Positions 9,612 through 39,407 of a stretch of DNA of 64,000 nt are shown in pieces (position 1 is the stretch's first letter; each line of letters begins with the position of its first letter). This stretch comes from Nocardioides sp. URHA0032. Lineage in GTDB: Bacteria > Actinomycetota > Actinomycetes > Propionibacteriales > Nocardioidaceae. Location of the stretch: the NCBI RefSeq assembly GCF_000620645.1, contig NZ_JIAV01000015.1, positions 124,001-188,000 on the forward strand, in the 5' to 3' direction. The notes under the pieces are model-generated. The model did no database searches. It worked only from the letters and a program-made list of their open reading frames with translations, and had not been told where the DNA came from. Position numbers and translations under genes: made by a program.

Positions 9612-10700
9612 GTGTCGGGGGATCGGTCCTACCCACCGCCGGGCAGTCCGCCGCCCGGCGGGCCGCCCCCGCCCGGATGGATGCCACCGCCCGCGCCGCC
9701 GCGCCAGGTCTGGGCGCCGTCCCCGCCGAGCGGGTCACCCGGCGTTCCTCGCGGGATGCTCGGCGCCGCGCACAAGCCCGGCGCGATCCCGTTGCGACCG
9801 CTGAACCTCGGGGACATGTACGACGCGGCGTTCCGCATCATCCGGTTCAACCCCCGGGCCACCGTCGGCTCGAGCGTGCTGGTCGCGGCGGTCTCCATGG
9901 CGCTGCCGGTGCTGCTGACCGCGATCCTGACGTTCGCCGTGGACCTCACCTCCGACGGCTCGGGCGACCTCTCGACCGGTGAGGCGATCGCGATCGCAGG
10001 CACCACCGGCTCGTTGCTGCTCGGCAGCGTGCTCCAGTCGATCGGCCTGCTGCTGGTCACCGGGATGGTCGCCCACGTGGTGTCGGCGGCCGCGATCGGT
10101 CGCCGGCTGACCCTGGGTGAGGCCTGGGCCGCGACGCACGGCTCGCGATGGCGACTGGTCGGCCTGACCCTGCTGCTGGGCCTGATGGTGCTCGGCCTGC
10201 TGGCCGCGTACGGCGCGGTCTGGGTGGTGCTCGCCCTGGTCGCCCCCACCTGGTTCCTCGTCGTCTTCGGCGTCGTCACCGCGCCGGCGTTCCTCGCCTT
10301 CCTCGTGTGGTGGTGGGTGCGCGTGTACTACCTGCCCGTCCCGCCGCTGATGATCGAGCGGATCGGGATCACCGCCGCGATCGGCCGGGCGTTCCGGCTG
10401 ACCCGCAGGCAGTTCTGGCGGACGCTCGGGATCGGCCTCCTGACGCTGGTCGTCGCCGGGATCGCCGGCAGCCTGCTGGCCCTACCGTTCACGATCGCCG
10501 CCCAGATCGTGCCCCTGGCGATGTCCGGCAGCCAGTACTTCGCGATCGTGACCGTGGTGCTCACCGCGCTCGGCACCGTCGTGCAGGCGGCGTTCGTGAC
10601 GCCGTTCAGCGCCGCGGTCACCTCGCTGCAGTACCTGGACCAGCGGATGCGCAAGGAGGCGTACGACGTCGAGCTGATCGCCCGGGCCGGCATCACGTGA
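9612..10700 (+). CDS. Multipass membrane protein with Pro-rich N-terminus
   Basis: A 362-aa protein beginning at GTG. Residues 1-55 are a Pro/Gly-rich cytosolic tail; then comes RPLNLGDMYDAAFRIIRFNP, a motif of actinobacterial membrane proteins sometimes annotated as glycerophosphodiester-phosphodiesterase membrane-domain proteins. About six hydrophobic segments follow. No catalytic residues were recognised. It is the first gene of a five-gene coupled run ending in MoxR and DUF58 and overlaps the next gene by 4 nt (GTGA), so it probably works with that system. Confidence 0.75.
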   Translation: MSGDRSYPPPGSPPPGGPPPPGWMPPPAPPRQVWAPSPPSGSPGVPRGMLGAAHKPGAIPLRPLNLGDMYDAAFRIIRFNPRATVGSSVLVAAVSMALPVLLTAILTFAVDLTSDGSGDLSTGEAIAIAGTTGSLLLGSVLQSIGLLLVTGMVAHVVSAAAIGRRLTLGEAWAATHGSRWRLVGLTLLLGLMVLGLLAAYGAVWVVLALVAPTWFLVVFGVVTAPAFLAFLVWWWVRVYYLPVPPLMIERIGITAAIGRAFRLTRRQFWRTLGIGLLTLVVAGIAGSLLALPFTIAAQIVPLAMSGSQYFAIVTVVLTALGTVVQAAFVTPFSAAVTSLQYLDQRMRKEAYDVELIARAGIT

Positions 10701-33199: not shown

Positions 33200-33988
33200 C
33201 TAGAAGAGCTCGATCTCGTCGGTGCTGACGGTGTCGAAGACCGGCTCCGGGAGCGGCACCGGCTCGTGCTTCTTGGCGAGCCGCACCTCGCTGTGCGCAC
33301 CGCAGCCGTGGTCGAAGGAGACGATCCGGCCGTCGTCGTTCGCATCGCCGTTCGCGCAGACCCCGAACGTCTCGGCGAGCGGACCGGCGATCCGCATCAG
33401 GAAGCCGCAGGTCGTGCACGAGTCCGGGGCGGAGCGGGCCACCGGGGCCTCGGGGCCACCGTCACCGTCGTACCAGCGCTGGGCGGCGAGGTCGCGGCCC
33501 TCCGGTGACAGCGTCCGGACCCGGCCCAGGCCGAGGTCCTTGGCGACCGCCCGGACCTGCGCCTTGTCGTCGGCGTCGAGCGGGTCGTCGCCGAAGGAGT
33601 ACGCCGGGACCAGGCGCGGGTCGTCGTCGTCGACCGGCAGCAGGTCGCCCGGGGAGAGGTCACCGGGCTTGATCCGCTCGCGGTAGGGCACCCACGCCGG
33701 AGCGACGATCGCCTCGTCGCCGGGGATCAGCACGACCTCGTCGACGGTCACCGCCTTCTGGCGGGGTGCGCGGGCCACGGTGACGGACCAGCGCCAGCCG
33801 ATGTATCCCGGCCGCTCGCAGGCGAACAGGTGGGTCACCACTCGCTCGTCCTCGACCAGGTGGCCGAGGTGCTCACCGACGTCCTCGGCCGGGACGTTCT
33901 CGAGGAGCGCGGCGCGGGCGGCGTCGACCGCCGCCACCGTGGCGGAGTCGGGCTTGGCGCGCGCGATCGTGGTCACAGACGAAATCAT
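33200..33988 (-). CDS. DUF3027 domain-containing protein
   Basis: A 262-aa soluble protein of the actinobacterial DUF3027 family. Recognised by the block RPGYIGWRWSVTVARAPRQK near residues 60-80, the WVPYRERIKPGDLSPGDLLP segment and a Cys-rich part SCTTCGFLMRIAGPLAETFG followed by VCAN and HGCGAHSEV, possibly a zinc site. It converges on the DUF2530 gene with 7 nt between stops. Function unknown. Confidence 0.88.
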   Translation of the reverse strand: MISSVTTIARAKPDSATVAAVDAARAALLENVPAEDVGEHLGHLVEDERVVTHLFACERPGYIGWRWSVTVARAPRQKAVTVDEVVLIPGDEAIVAPAWVPYRERIKPGDLSPGDLLPVDDDDPRLVPAYSFGDDPLDADDKAQVRAVAKDLGLGRVRTLSPEGRDLAAQRWYDGDGGPEAPVARSAPDSCTTCGFLMRIAGPLAETFGVCANGDANDDGRIVSFDHGCGAHSEVRLAKKHEPVPLPEPVFDTVSTDEIELF

Positions 33989-34046: not shown

Positions 34047-35399
34047 ATGACGGACCTGCCGGACCCCACGGCGCCCGCCGGCTCGAAGGTCGCGCGGGGT
34101 CTCGGCGCCACGGCCCGGGCGACCCGTCGGGCGGGCCGCTTCACCATGCGAACGGCGAAGCGCGCGGCCGACGCCCAGGGCGCCGGCGAGTCCGGCCTGT
34201 CGCGGCTGATCCAGATGCACTTCTTCAACACCGCCGGCGACGCCGCCGTCGCGATCGCGCTGGCCGGGACACTCTTCTTCACGGTGCCCTCGGGCGAGGC
34301 GCGCGGCCAGGTGGCGCTGTTCCTGGGCCTGACGATGCTGCCGTTCGCCATCGTGGCGCCGCTGATCGGGCCGTTCCTCGACCGGTTCGCGCACGGCCGC
34401 CGCTGGGCGATCGGCGCGACCATGGCGATCCGCTGCTTCCTGTGCTGGGTGCTCGCCGGCGCCGTGCACACCGACTCCAGATGGCTGTTCCCCGCGGCGC
34501 TCGGGGTCCTCGTCGCGTCCAAGGCGTACGGCGTGACCCGCGCGGCCGCCGTACCCCGCCTGCTGCCGCGGGACTTCACCCTGGTCAAGGCGAACGGCCG
34601 GGTGTCGATGTCCGGCATCGTCGCCGTCGCGATCTCCGCGCCGATCGCCGGGCTGGCGTCGCTGGCCGGGCCGGAATGGGTCCTCCGCTACGCCTTCCTG
34701 CTGTTCCTGGTCGCCACCGTCACCGCCATCCGGCTGCCGAGCCGCGTCGACTCGAGCGCGGGCGAGGGCGACCTGGTGCTGCGCGGCGACGCCGGCAGCG
34801 CCCGGACCGGCAGCATGCGGATCCCCCCGGCCGTGTCGTACGCGCTGCGCGCGAACTGCGGGCCGCGGTGGATGTCGGGATTCCTGATCATGTTCATGGC
34901 GTTCCAGCTGCGGGAGAACCCGATCGACGGCTGGAGCACCGAGGTCCTGACCGCGGTCGTGGTGGGCGGCGCCGCGACGGGCAACTTCCTCGGCGTCGTC
35001 GCGGCGTCCGTGCTCAAGCAGATCAACCCGGCGGTCACGGTCTCGGCCGTCCTCGTGGCCGACCTCGCCGTCGTCGTCTTCGGCTTCCTCCTGTACGGCG
35101 TGCTCGCGCTGCTGCTGCTCGGCCTGGTGGCCGGGCTGGGACAGGCGCTCGCCAAGTTCTCCCTGGACGCGACGATCCAGCGCGACGTGCCGCACCGCGT
35201 CCAGGCCAGTGCGTTCGCCCGGAGCGACACCACGCTGCAGCTGGCGTGGGTCATCGGCGGGTTCGTCGGCATCGCGATGCCGATCGACCCGCCCCGGCTC
35301 GGCCTCGGCGTCGCGGTCGCCGTGCTCGCGGCGTGGGTCCTGTTCGTCCTGACCCGCCACTCGCCGCGGCTCCGCCGCGAGATGGCCACCGGGAGCTAG
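34047..35399 (+). CDS. MFS transporter
   Basis: A 450-aa membrane protein. A 55-residue basic cytosolic tail (RRAGRFTMRTAKRAADAQ) precedes about twelve helices; the loop between helices 2 and 3 is PFLDRFAHGRRWAIGATMAI. A central cytosolic loop (residues 232-262) is acidic. I take the ATG at 34047, with CAGGAT (34035-34040) 6 nt upstream, since the longer reading lies in the DUF3027 upstream region. The substrate is unknown; it converges on the cold-shock gene with a 4-nt overlap. Confidence 0.87.
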   Translation: MTDLPDPTAPAGSKVARGLGATARATRRAGRFTMRTAKRAADAQGAGESGLSRLIQMHFFNTAGDAAVAIALAGTLFFTVPSGEARGQVALFLGLTMLPFAIVAPLIGPFLDRFAHGRRWAIGATMAIRCFLCWVLAGAVHTDSRWLFPAALGVLVASKAYGVTRAAAVPRLLPRDFTLVKANGRVSMSGIVAVAISAPIAGLASLAGPEWVLRYAFLLFLVATVTAIRLPSRVDSSAGEGDLVLRGDAGSARTGSMRIPPAVSYALRANCGPRWMSGFLIMFMAFQLRENPIDGWSTEVLTAVVVGGAATGNFLGVVAASVLKQINPAVTVSAVLVADLAVVVFGFLLYGVLALLLLGLVAGLGQALAKFSLDATIQRDVPHRVQASAFARSDTTLQLAWVIGGFVGIAMPIDPPRLGLGVAVAVLAAWVLFVLTRHSPRLRREMATGS

Positions 35400-35791
35400 A
35401 GCTCGAGCTCGTCGGCGAGCGCGCGGAGCAGCTTGGCGGTCGGCTTCGCCGTCTTGGGGTCCGGGTACCGGCCGTGGCGGTACGCCTCGCCGGCGCCGTC
35501 GAGCAGCCGGATCAGGTCCTCGACGATGGTCGCCATCTCGTCGGGCTTCTTGCGCTTGGCGTCCCGCTGGTTGCGGCTCACCGAGGCGGGCCGGTCGAGG
35601 ACCCGCACCTGGAGCGCCTGCTCGCCGCGCCGGCCCTGGGCGATGCCGAACTCGACGCGGGTGCCGGGCTTGAGGGTGTCGATGCCGTCGGGCAACGCGT
35701 CGGCGTGGACGTAGACGTCCGGGCCGTCCTCCTGCGACAGGAAGCCGAACCCCTTGTCGGTGTCGAACCACTTCACCTTGCCAGTGGGCAC
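35396..35791 (-). CDS. Cold-shock domain protein with C-terminal extension
   Basis: A 131-aa protein. Residues 1-66 form the cold-shock OB fold with both RNA-binding motifs (KGFGFL and VYVHADAL). The 65-residue extension is basic and then helical (SVSRNQRDAKRKKPDEMATI, ending LLRALADELEL), so it is about twice the length of CspA. This two-part form is common in actinobacteria. Likely a nucleic-acid chaperone. Its stop overlaps the convergent MFS gene by 4 nt. Confidence 0.93.
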   Translation of the reverse strand: MPTGKVKWFDTDKGFGFLSQEDGPDVYVHADALPDGIDTLKPGTRVEFGIAQGRRGEQALQVRVLDRPASVSRNQRDAKRKKPDEMATIVEDLIRLLDGAGEAYRHGRYPDPKTAKPTAKLLRALADELEL

Positions 35792-35840: not shown

Positions 35841-37256
35841 CTAGAGGCGTTCGTTCATCGATCCCGAACGGAATCCGCGGGGATCGACGCCGGCCTCGTC
35901 GAAGCCGGCGGCGCGCACGCCCGCGAGCAGCCGCTCCTCGACGTCGGGGGCGAGCGGGAGCAGCCCGGCGTCGATCTCGACCGACGCCCGGGCGCCGAGG
36001 TCGCGGACCCTCAGGTCGACCGGCCCGGCACCCAGTGCGGACCGTACGGCGGCCTCGGCGCGCTCCACCCGGCCGAGGCGGTACGGCGTCACCTCGACGC
36101 CGTACGCGACCCGGGACGACAGGCACGCGGCCGCGGGCTTGTCCCAGGTCGGCAGGTCCCAGCGCCGGGACGCCTCCCGGACCTGGGCCTTGGTCAGCCC
36201 GGCGTCGCGCAGCGGAGCGATCGCGCCCCGCTCGGCGGCGGCCCGGATGCCCGGCCGGAACCCGGCCACGGCGTCGTCGGCGTTCGTCCCCGTGGCGACG
36301 TGGGCGAGCCCGCGGTCGGCGGCGATCGGCCCCAGCACCTCGATCAGCTCGGCCTTGCAGAAGTAGCAGCGGTCCGCACCGTTGGCGCGGTAGCCCTCGC
36401 GCTCCATCTCGTGGGTCTGCGGGGTGAGCACCTCGACACCGAGCGAGGTCGCGAACTCCCGCGCCGGGTCGCGCTCCACCTGCGGCAGCGAGTGGGAGTA
36501 GCCGGTCGCGGCGACGACGTGCTGCGGCCCGAGCGCCCGGACCGCGGCCGCGAGCAGGAAGGCGCTGTCCGCGCCGCCGCTGTAGGCGACCAGCACGGAG
36601 CCACGCTCCCGCAGGTCGGCCTCGAGGGCGTCGAGCCGCAGCTGCAGGAGGTGGTCCTCGAGCCAGGCCGGGAACGCGCCGAGGTCGTCGAGCACGACGT
36701 GCGTGCCGGCCGCCAGCAGCTCCTCACGGGTGCAGCCGCCGGTGAGCACGGAGACGCTCAGCGCCCCGGCGGCCAGCGCCCCCTCGACGTCGTGGACGTG
36801 GTCGCCCACGTAGATCGTGGCTCCCTCGCGGCGCAGCACGTCGGCCTTGCCGACACCCCACACCCAGCCCTCGAGGTGGTCCACGTCCAGGGCGAGGTGG
36901 TCGAGGTGGAGCCGGGCGTTGGCGGGGTACTTCCCGGTCACGACCAGCACCCGGCCCGCGTGCCGGCGTACCGCCTCGATGGCCTCGTGCGCGCCCGGGA
37001 GCACGGGCGTGCCCGTGATCGCGTGGTCGGGGTAGAGCGCGCGGAACCGGTCGCCCGCCGCCGCGATCGCGTCGGGCGCGAGATACGGCTCGAGCAGGAG
37101 GTCGAGGGGCGGCCCGAGCTTCGCGGTCATCTCGGCGACCGGGAACTCCACGCCCAGCTCTGCGCCGAGGGCGTGCAGCACCTCCGCGAACCCCGGTGCG
37201 GTGTCGATCAGCGTCATGTCGAGGTCGAAACCGACGACGAGGGGCGCTGACTGCAT
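35841..37256 (-). CDS. HAD phosphatase-LarE sulfur transferase fusion
   Basis: A 471-aa two-domain protein. Residues 1-205 are a HAD hydrolase of the phosphoglycolate-phosphatase type: motif I DLDMTLID (Asp11, Asp13), motif II VVTGK, motif IV GDHVHD (151-156). Residues 208-471 are LarE-like: PP-loop SGGADS (226-231), CYFCK (297-301) and the sacrificial-cysteine region AACLSSR (Cys378). LarE turns a carboxylated nicotinate mononucleotide into the thio form of the nickel-pincer cofactor; no larB, larC or lactate racemase is nearby. TAGGCT (complement of 37263-37268) is 6 nt before the ATG. Confidence 0.88.
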   Translation of the reverse strand: MQSAPLVVGFDLDMTLIDTAPGFAEVLHALGAELGVEFPVAEMTAKLGPPLDLLLEPYLAPDAIAAAGDRFRALYPDHAITGTPVLPGAHEAIEAVRRHAGRVLVVTGKYPANARLHLDHLALDVDHLEGWVWGVGKADVLRREGATIYVGDHVHDVEGALAAGALSVSVLTGGCTREELLAAGTHVVLDDLGAFPAWLEDHLLQLRLDALEADLRERGSVLVAYSGGADSAFLLAAAVRALGPQHVVAATGYSHSLPQVERDPAREFATSLGVEVLTPQTHEMEREGYRANGADRCYFCKAELIEVLGPIAADRGLAHVATGTNADDAVAGFRPGIRAAAERGAIAPLRDAGLTKAQVREASRRWDLPTWDKPAAACLSSRVAYGVEVTPYRLGRVERAEAAVRSALGAGPVDLRVRDLGARASVEIDAGLLPLAPDVEERLLAGVRAAGFDEAGVDPRGFRSGSMNERL

Positions 37257-37343
37257 GTCCCCAGCCTAGGGAACGAGGTGTTGAGTTCCGAAACGCCTGT
37301 CACAATGAGTGGCTCACGTGACAGCAGTGTTCGAGGGGGAACC

Positions 37344-39407
37344 GTGCGAGCGAGGGCCGCGACCGGTGCAGCTGCGCTGGCGGTCGCCCTCGGCGTCTTG
37401 GTCCCGGCGCACCCGGCCACCGCCGCGCGCGGCGAGGAGCTCTACCTGGTCACGCTCGAGGGACCCGGCGCCAGCGGGCTGCTGGGCAGCCTCTCGCTGA
37501 GCGCCGAGCAGGACCGGGTGCTCACCGCCGTCGGCGCTCCCGAGCCGGTCTACCGGTGGACCACCGCGCTCAACGGCGTCGCCGTACGCCTCACCGCCGG
37601 GCAGGCCGCTGACCTCCGGCGGAACGCCGAGGTGGCGCTCGTGGAGAAGGACGAGGTGCGCCCGCTCGCCGGGCGGACCGGCCGGGCCGGGCTCGTGCCG
37701 GGGCTGCCGTCGCGCGACCGGGGCGGCGCGGGCGCGGTGATCGGCGTCGTCGACACCGGGATCGCGCCGGAGAGCCCGGTGTTCTCGACCGTGTCCGGCC
37801 TCGGGCGGGCACCGCGCGACTTCCACGGTGCCTGCCAGCCCGGCGACGGGTGGGCGACCGACACCTGCACCCGCAAGCTGGTCGGCGCCCGCTGGTTCGT
37901 CGACGGCTTCGGCGCCGACCGGGTGCGCTCGTCGGAGTCGCTGTCTGCGCGCGACGACGACGGCCACGGCACCCAGGTCGCCTCCATCGCCGCCGGCGAC
38001 TCCGACGTGCCCGCGCGGGTCGCGGACCAGCACCTCGGCACGTACGCCGGGGTGGCGCCGCAGGCCCGCCTCGCGATCTACAAGGCCTGCTGGACCGCCC
38101 CCGACCCGCGTGACGACGGCTGCTCCACCGCCGACCTGGTGAGCGCGATCGACGCGGCCACCCGGGACGGAGTCGACGTGCTGAACCTCTCGGTGGGCGG
38201 GCCGGCCGGCTTCGACACCGTCGAGCGCGCGCTGCTCGGCGCGGCCGAGCACGACGTCGTGGTCGTCGGTGCGGCCGGGAACTCCCCCGACCGGGTCGCC
38301 GCCCACGGGTCGCCGTGGGTGACGACGGCCGGCGCGACCACCGGGCCGGTGCGCGAGGGCCGCGTGGTGCTGTCCGACGGGAGGTCGTTCACCGGCGCGA
38401 TGGCCTCCGCGGACCGGGTCTCCGGCAGGCTGGTGATCGGCGCCGACGCCGCCGCCGAGGACTCGACGAGGAGTGCGGCCCGGGTCTGCACCCCCGGCAG
38501 CCTGGACGCCTCGGAGGTCGCGGGCCGGGTGGTCCTGTGCGACCGCGGCGCGATCGGCCGGGTCGACAAGTCTGCCGCGGTCGCGCAGGCGGACGGCGCC
38601 GGCATGGTGCTCGCCAACCGCGGCCCGGGATCCGAGGTCGCCGACTTCCACACCGTCCCGACGGTCCACGTCGACGCAGTCGCCGGCCGTGCCCTGCGCC
38701 GGTACGACGGAGCTGTGCGGCTGGTCCCGCTCGGCGCGGAGCGGACCCCTCCGCACGTCGCCCGCTGGTCGAGCACCGGCGACCCGTCCGGACCGGTCCT
38801 CAAGCCCGACCTGGTCGCGAACGGCACCGGGGTCCTCGGCGCGGTGCCCGGCGATGACGCGTGGGACCTGGCGTCCGGGACCTCGGTCGCCTCCGCCGTC
38901 ACCAGCGGGGCGGCCGCCCTGCTGGTCGCCCGGCATCCCGACTGGGCGGCCGCGACGGTCCGGTCGGCCCTGGTGACCACCGCCCGCCGGGTCCCGGGCA
39001 CCGCCGTGCTGAGTGCCGGTGCAGGCCGGGTGGTCGCCGACCCCGCGCTCCGCCCCGGCCTGGCGTACCAGGTCGCACCCGGCGACTACCGCGCCTGGCT
39101 GACCGGCACGCTGACCGGAGACCTGAACACCCCGTCGATCCTGCTCACCGGGAGCGCGGACACCGCCGTTCGCACGATCACGAACGTGACCGGCCGGCGG
39201 CTCTACTTCTCGTCGCGGGCGACCGGGTTCGTCCACCACCGGGTGCGCGTCACCCCGGCGGCGGTCCGGCTCGGCCCGGGCGAGAGCGCGAGGTTCACCG
39301 TCACGGTCGGCCGCACCTCCGTGCCGCAGCCGGACGACGACGGCTGGATCACGTGGCGCGGCGCGACCGGGACCGTGACCCGGATCCCCGTCGTGATCTC
39401 GCGCTGA
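37344..39407 (+). CDS. Secreted subtilisin-like serine protease (S8) with PA domain
   Basis: A 687-aa preproprotein. The GTG at 37344 with GAGGGGGA just upstream gives a good signal peptide (residues 1-28, ending PATAA); an in-frame start further up lacks one. A propeptide inhibitor I9 domain (30-105) precedes the catalytic domain: Asp137 (VVDTGI), His208 (DDGHGTQVAS), Asn313 (GAAGNS) and Ser514 (SGTSVASA). A PA domain is inserted at about 345-465, and a fibronectin-III-like domain (590-687) ends the protein. Probably exported to degrade proteins. Confidence 0.94.
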   Translation: MRARAATGAAALAVALGVLVPAHPATAARGEELYLVTLEGPGASGLLGSLSLSAEQDRVLTAVGAPEPVYRWTTALNGVAVRLTAGQAADLRRNAEVALVEKDEVRPLAGRTGRAGLVPGLPSRDRGGAGAVIGVVDTGIAPESPVFSTVSGLGRAPRDFHGACQPGDGWATDTCTRKLVGARWFVDGFGADRVRSSESLSARDDDGHGTQVASIAAGDSDVPARVADQHLGTYAGVAPQARLAIYKACWTAPDPRDDGCSTADLVSAIDAATRDGVDVLNLSVGGPAGFDTVERALLGAAEHDVVVVGAAGNSPDRVAAHGSPWVTTAGATTGPVREGRVVLSDGRSFTGAMASADRVSGRLVIGADAAAEDSTRSAARVCTPGSLDASEVAGRVVLCDRGAIGRVDKSAAVAQADGAGMVLANRGPGSEVADFHTVPTVHVDAVAGRALRRYDGAVRLVPLGAERTPPHVARWSSTGDPSGPVLKPDLVANGTGVLGAVPGDDAWDLASGTSVASAVTSGAAALLVARHPDWAAATVRSALVTTARRVPGTAVLSAGAGRVVADPALRPGLAYQVAPGDYRAWLTGTLTGDLNTPSILLTGSADTAVRTITNVTGRRLYFSSRATGFVHHRVRVTPAAVRLGPGESARFTVTVGRTSVPQPDDDGWITWRGATGTVTRIPVVISR

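Follow-up and report, generated by a model that had tools for sequence, protein, structure and literature searches.

According to the accessible part of the respective publication (PMC9283937), the sulfur transferase LarE of Thermotoga maritima passes on sulfide via a [4Fe-4S] cluster held by three cysteines, namely a CXXC pair and a third cysteine shifted by one residue against Cys176 of Lactiplantibacillus plantarum LarE, and these three cysteines occur in most LarE homologues. Ser180, Arg212, and Arg214 of the L. plantarum enzyme are proposed there to hold the phosphate of P2CMN, the pyridinium dicarboxylate mononucleotide of the pathway (PMC9283937). Here, we analysed a gene of Nocardioides sp. 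URHA0032 in which a LarE domain follows a phosphatase domain of the HAD family. It lies in a stretch of 64,000 nucleotides, hereafter the window, on contig C12 of a 4.56-Mb genome assembled into 17 contigs. While this kind of LarE is already known, the HAD-LarE architecture was not found in print in the openly accessible literature searched, which was partly covered by titles and the openings of abstracts; the single hit for Nocardioides proved to be a place name. Likewise, the accessible parts of PMC9283937, PMC11770544, PMC7583248, and PMC11796402 do not describe it.

A phosphatase and a LarE domain in one reading frame

The fusion gene is located on the minus strand (35841..37256), starts with an ATG at 37256, ends with a TAG at 35843-35841, and encodes 471 aa. 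The initial annotation, which named no strand, had proposed one 471-aa chain with both active sites complete, and this was borne out by the single open reading frame, by profile matches to HAD and LarE, and by the conserved residues described below. Scanning the frame over 35841-37256 revealed no internal stop in the 471 codons, and the G+C content at the three codon positions (0.81/0.50/0.96) was much the same in each quarter of the gene, so that a hidden frame change between the domains is absent; the frameshift or missed stop named beforehand as the weak point of the annotation was thus looked for and not found. Since full-length relatives of the fusion (59-84% identity) occur in other genomes, chance or an assembly error could be ruled out. 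An artefact, i.e., two neighbouring genes joined by a missed stop or a frameshift, might still be suggested by one family group (three genomes) where HAD and LarE adjoin as separate genes in different frames, but it is refuted by the open frame, the uniform codon-position G+C, and the fact that 77 distinct rows of fused LarE share the identical in-frame join, and its probability is negligible. Altogether, the two-domain fusion in Nocardioides sp. URHA0032 was confirmed as real. Its AlphaFold2 model, based on 21 aligned sequences, reached a mean pLDDT of 91.8 and a pTM of 0.87, and predicted a continuous helix leading from the HAD into the LarE domain (residues 192-218; 36603..36683, minus strand).

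The N-terminal half was assigned by Pfam and by its fold to the HAD phosphatases (subfamily I, C1 cap; residues 1-200; 36657..37256, minus strand), with HAD_2, HAD, Hydrolase, and Hydrolase_like all scoring over cut-off within residues 8-193. All of motifs I-IV that define the HAD family (D..D, T/S, K, D...D) were present. Motif I, D11-x-D13 (37218..37226, minus strand), presumably provides the nucleophile and the acid/base aspartate; the lysine of motif III is K109 or K137; and motif IV runs, judged by row conservation, from D152 to D156 (DHVHD; 36789..36803, minus strand). D11, D13, K109, K137, D152, and D156 were invariant in 100/100 distinct HAD rows, and position 107 was occupied by T in 90 and by S in 10 of them. 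All catalytic positions were also retained in proteins consisting of the HAD domain only (21/21). Modelled alone, the domain reached a pLDDT of 95.8, and the models placed a helical cap (helices 20-34, 40-45, 51-55, and 61-78) between motifs I and II.

A structure search with the HAD domain gave HAD-fold proteins for all 50 matches listed, with 16-24% identity. Most of these were unspecific HADs and pyrophosphatases (3qu2 and relatives), so that the fold led to no substrate assignment, and the nearer fold and sequence matches among those listed were unspecific or phosphoglycolate-type phosphatases. Bacterial phosphoglycolate phosphatase (TIGR01449) was rejected with 47.3 bits, far under its cut-off of 180. 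From an identity of about 20% and 47 bits against 180, a substrate is not assignable. The N-terminal half is probably a HAD phosphatase of small molecules with a separate function.

The LarE domain comprises residues 209-471 (35844..36632, minus strand) and was delimited by profile and Foldseek searches. The NCBIfam equivalog profile for LarE, TIGR00268, matched residues 209-468 with 267.3 bits (cut-off 150), and when the whole fusion model was submitted to Foldseek, all 50 PDB matches listed were LarE of lactate racemase. Alignment located a PP-loop SGGADS (residues 226-231; 36564..36581, minus strand), which conforms to SGGxDS, a CXXC formed by Cys297 and Cys300 (36357..36368, minus strand), predicted by analogy with T. 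maritima LarE to be cluster ligands, and Cys378 (36123..36125, minus strand) as the third cysteine of the CXXC-C triad. Among 142 distinct LarE rows, S226, G228, D230, S231, C297, C300, C378, R416, and R418 were invariant, the triad thus being found in 142/142, and single exceptions occurred at G227 (A in one row) and S381 (T in one row). L. plantarum Ser180, Arg212, and Arg214 correspond to S381, R416, and R418, which were kept in 141, 142, and 142 of the 142 rows, respectively. Mutated catalytic residues, the other circumstance that was to speak against the annotation, were accordingly not found among the relatives examined (100 HAD and 142 LarE rows).

The initial annotation had further recognised a "sacrificial-Cys" region. 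Pairwise alignment revealed that Ala377 occupies the place of L. plantarum Cys176 and that Cys378, one residue further, is the cysteine belonging to CXXC-C. Because of this alanine and of the triad in every row, the label "sacrificial" does not fit, and a sacrificial-cysteine LarE of the L. plantarum type was ruled out. By its sequence, the LarE half is of the [4Fe-4S] CXXC-C type, and we infer by analogy that it would transfer a cluster-borne sulfide.

The nickel-pincer nucleotide pathway in the genome and the family

It had been noted beforehand that no larB, larC, or nickel enzyme gene lies near the fusion. This is correct in that all of them are located on other contigs, yet they are present in the genome: LarC was found on contig C10 with LarB directly before it, and a LarA-type protein on C14. 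With the set of NF033503, TIGR00299, and NF052512 for LarB and LarC, LarB reached 268 bits (cut-off 175), while LarC1 and LarC2 scored 195 and 139 bits against curated cut-offs of 90 and 50, respectively. The LarA homologue matched NF052592 (NPN-dependent isomerase LarAH14/15/16) with 915.4 bits (cut-off 740). The cut-off for LarE was passed at a single site of the genome, which is the gene in the window. As a side observation, the LarA homologue (L071:6780-8360) directly follows an ORF that, judged by eye, resembles a zinc alcohol dehydrogenase. In other actinobacteria, LarE genes free of a HAD domain adjoin larB and larC, e.g., in loci L099, L151, and L174; in L151 (Nocardioides litoris), the neighbourhood of such a gene also includes a homologue of LarA that shares 82% identity with that of the source genome.

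To these data we added a survey of 149 genomes of the family, in which the counts are not independent because the genomes are related to one another. LarE was present in 56, LarC in 59, and both in 55 of them. A single genome had LarE but no LarC (G009, with a completeness of 82%), and four had LarC but no LarE (G027, G032, G062, and G122), each of these assembled into 300-500 contigs. Lar_N, representing LarA, was detected in 28 genomes, all with LarC, so that 31/59 LarC genomes had no Lar_N match.

As the gene is the sole LarE of a genome that also encodes LarB, LarC, and a homologue of LarA, its LarE half most likely carries out the usual thiolation in the synthesis of the nickel-pincer nucleotide. 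The basis for this putative role is made up of sequence, fold, the positions of cofactor ligands and of substrate binding, and the co-occurrence with larB, larC, and the LarA homologue. The initial annotation had instead considered that the fusion may serve a different sulfur-transfer reaction, outside nickel-pincer nucleotide synthesis. This would agree with the position of LarC and Lar_N, which matched the genome only on contigs other than that of the fusion, and with the 31/59 LarC-bearing family genomes without a Lar_N match as a user of the cofactor. Against it stand the presence of a single LarE in a genome with larB-larC on C10 and a LarAH14/15/16 protein on C14, the conserved P2CMN-binding positions (141-142 of 142 rows), and the family survey, with LarC in 55/56 LarE genomes and LarE in 55/59 LarC genomes. 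Given these pathway genes and this co-occurrence, we dropped a different reaction as the leading view and consider it very improbable.

Fused and separate forms and their genomic place

In the family survey, the fused state was found in 46 genomes, including two with partial coverage (G055, residues 53-471; G009, residues 82-470), and LarC accompanied it in 45/46, which answers positively the proposed check for co-occurrence with the pathway. One further genome (G046), tallied separately, has LarC and a fusion whose frame is broken inside the HAD domain. LarE without a close HAD match occurred in nine genomes, with LarC in 9/9; in two of these (G002 and G042), the contig ends exactly where the HAD domain would lie, leaving 7/7, and one (G001) has a broken LarE frame. 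HAD without LarE was found in 56 genomes, one of them (G067) with a broken HAD frame, and LarC was present in 0/56. Neither domain was detected in 37 genomes, of which four had LarC, among them G032, where part of LarE is found at the end of a contig. At most 10 candidates per genome were scored, with an additional weak match left unlisted in each of G042 and G052, so that remote copies of the HAD domain may have escaped this search. HAD was commoner in genomes with LarE (47/56, one broken fusion included) than in those without (56/93), an enrichment that could reflect a mutual benefit of the halves or simply their being encoded by one gene.

The proposed search for HAD-LarE domain architectures was likewise fruitful. 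At the level of the class, a search of 394 genomes revealed the fused form in 46, spread over eight family groups (in G451 cut by a contig end), with Nocardioides, Marmoricola, Kribbella, Frankia, Pseudofrankia, and Embleya among the holders. The fused form made up 35 of the 80 loci kept, which gives no prevalence since these were the best 80 of 331 for a fused query. Searching 396 genomes of the phylum at E <= 1e-85 resulted in five matches, with both domains covered only in the source genome; distant fusions would be missed at this strict threshold.

In the window, the fusion is followed after 49 bp by a gene for a cold-shock-domain (CSD) protein (35396..35791, minus strand), which marks a conserved place; beyond it lie a transporter-like ORF and a DUF3027 gene (33200..33988, minus strand), identified by a profile match and used as a second marker. 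On the other side, an ORF for a subtilisin-type protease (S8, PA domain; 37278-39407, plus strand) is oriented divergently, its mechanical start being 21 bp from the start codon of the fusion. In several loci, a relative of this S8 protease was likewise seen next to the fusion or to a separate HAD or LarE gene.

A CSD gene was found within 1.1 kb after the gene in 84/91 fused, 16/21 HAD-only, and 25/68 LarE-labelled loci (duplicates included). It was missing from this distance in 7/91 fused and 5/21 HAD-only loci and in all three loci of adjacent pairs, i.e., in genomes G158, G181, and G198 of one other family group, where HAD and LarE are neighbours in different frames. Many of the LarE-only genes away from CSD adjoin larB or larC. 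Thus, the fusion mostly lies beside the CSD gene, in the same place where other genomes hold the phosphatase alone or LarE alone. In one genome (G058; loci L064 and L065), two different full-length fusions were seen, both near CSD and DUF3027 genes, but this assembly may be mixed.

The ends of the HAD-only proteins were also located: all 14 examined extend 3-21 residues beyond the end of the HAD alignment and stop within the linker helix or shortly after it, and in 9 of 10 loci measured, their stop lies 38-117 bp from the CSD gene. The remaining locus (L046) has a gap of 851 bp, which is occupied by an ORF with a HEAGH motif (L046:6918-7798), which we take to be an M50-like membrane protease. 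Similar DNA follows the fusion and precedes the CSD gene in L010, L013, L014, L017, and L116, so in L046 this gene persists though LarE is gone. Conversely, a tblastn scan of up to 1000 bp upstream of 68 LarE-labelled loci, using only stretches longer than 60 bp, found no HAD remnants ahead of LarE-only genes except in L132, which is cut by a contig end. By eye, a stretch resembling a HAD start (VVGFDL) was noticed before the LarE-only gene in L057 at about 10178-10249, perhaps a deletion scar, which was not significant in tblastn.

In a tree of 64 HAD rows with LarC status, the fused or HAD-only state matched the presence or absence of LarC in 64/64. These rows, restricted to fully read HAD domains, stem from 42/46 fused and 21/56 HAD-only genomes, with G058 giving two. 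Fused versus HAD-only needed 10 changes on this tree, five of them forced by starred branches, and the supported independent pairs agreed with LarC in direction in 5/5 cases (sign test p 0.0625, the minimum possible for five pairs). The larger HAD tree (76 fused, 21 HAD-only, and 3 adjacent rows) required 15 changes, six of them forced, and bootstraps gave 13-16 changes for the fused label. On the LarE tree (77 fused, 62 LarE, and 3 adjacent distinct rows), 22 state changes were counted, only three being forced by starred branches; it is poorly resolved (55/139 inner branches open), and four of the 62 rows labelled LarE may represent truncated fusions, as less than 700 bp of sequence precedes them. 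Since these counts cannot separate gain from loss, the direction was judged from the genes themselves: HAD-only genes are scattered among fused ones and end near the linker helix, wherefore we infer that an old fusion would have lost one half repeatedly. On some branches, it is possible that neighbours fused repeatedly.

Two enzymes in one chain and their known counterparts

Because 56 genomes hold HAD without LarE and LarC, and seven hold LarE and LarC without a close HAD match, the phosphatase would have a use outside the pathway and appears neither specific to nor required by nickel-pincer synthesis. As many genomes retain only one of the halves, the fused parts probably have separate functions. 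We thus regard it as probable that the chain is a tether of two independently useful enzymes, with LarE doing cluster-based thiolation of P2CMN and HAD acting as an independent phosphatase. In such a chain, the LarE half would adenylylate the carboxylates of P2CMN with ATP and insert the sulfide borne on its tri-Cys [4Fe-4S] cluster, like the enzyme of T. maritima; LarC would then insert nickel, and a LarAH-type isomerase would use the finished cofactor. The HAD gene may once have adjoined larE beside the CSD gene and then have joined it, selection maintaining both active sites. A lineage losing nickel-pincer nucleotide synthesis would have lost the LarE half and kept the phosphatase, and in other lineages the phosphatase may have been lost and LarE kept. 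The join would accordingly be a tether and not a dedicated reaction pair. However, the frequency of fusions and the integrity of both active sites across a wide range might be taken by some to indicate coupling.

Such a coupling could mean that the phosphatase helps the pathway by clearing pyrophosphate or AMP released by LarE or by dephosphorylating a pathway nucleotide, with a second use explaining the HAD-only genomes. In favour of this, the fusions examined have retained the two active sites, the architecture is widespread, and the structure search with the HAD domain also hit pyrophosphatases (3qu2 and relatives). Yet 56 genomes of the family have the domain but neither LarE nor LarC, seven LarE genomes with an intact upstream region, all with LarC, have no close HAD match, and the closer fold and sequence matches listed are unspecific or phosphoglycolate-type phosphatases. 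In addition, the LarE gene of T. maritima, given as 0.83 kb in the accessible part of PMC9283937, is too short to include a HAD domain. We therefore hold a helper role to be rather doubtful. The initial proposal that the phosphatase could trim a pathway intermediate is likewise weakened by the 56 HAD-only and seven LarE-only genomes. As for its target, it is conceivable, but unlikely, that the tethered enzyme acts on a compound of the pathway, be it P2CMN, P2TMN, the completed cofactor, or the AMP/PPi of LarE, while policing a related pyridine nucleotide elsewhere. If the phosphatase did act on a pathway compound, actinobacteria would have a phosphatase-gated nickel-pincer pathway.

Returning to the tether of independent enzymes, our analysis documents a common form of LarE that is undescribed in the literature searched, and it reveals an actinobacterium that encodes the complete pathway to the nickel-pincer nucleotide with larE apart from larB-larC and within a phosphatase gene. 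Since each half survives alone in many genomes and the LarE half tracks its pathway, it also provides a well-sampled warning against the reasoning that fusion means a shared pathway. The 31/59 LarC family genomes without a Lar_N match are places to seek nickel-pincer enzymes of other kinds; such a gap is already in print for about 15% of genomes (PMC11796402, accessible part).

Compared to known systems, the LarE half has the same fold and family as L. plantarum LarE (PDB 5udq, 6b2o, and others), with an E value of 1.2e-26 to 5udq by sequence, a TM-score of up to 0.87 by target length, and the three residues proposed to bind the P2CMN phosphate conserved. In contrast, the L. plantarum enzyme has no CXXC pair and sacrifices its own Cys176, the site taken by Ala377 in the fusion. 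The HAD half shares the four motifs, the helical cap between motifs I and II, and a TM-score of about 0.8 with C1-cap subfamily I phosphatases (PDB 3mc1, 2ah5, and 3sd7, as well as 2nyv and 2yy6 of the phosphoglycolate phosphatase type), but is only about 20% identical to them. As far as the accessible part of PMC9283937 describes it, T. maritima LarE agrees with the fusion in the PP-loop SGGxDS, the CXXC-C triad, and the one-residue shift against L. plantarum Cys176, whereas its 0.83-kb gene encodes no phosphatase and about 200 HAD residues precede LarE here. Finally, in a HAD-terpene cyclase fusion (PMC12365925, accessible part), a HAD phosphatase domain is likewise joined to another enzyme, but the partner and its pathway are unrelated to LarE.
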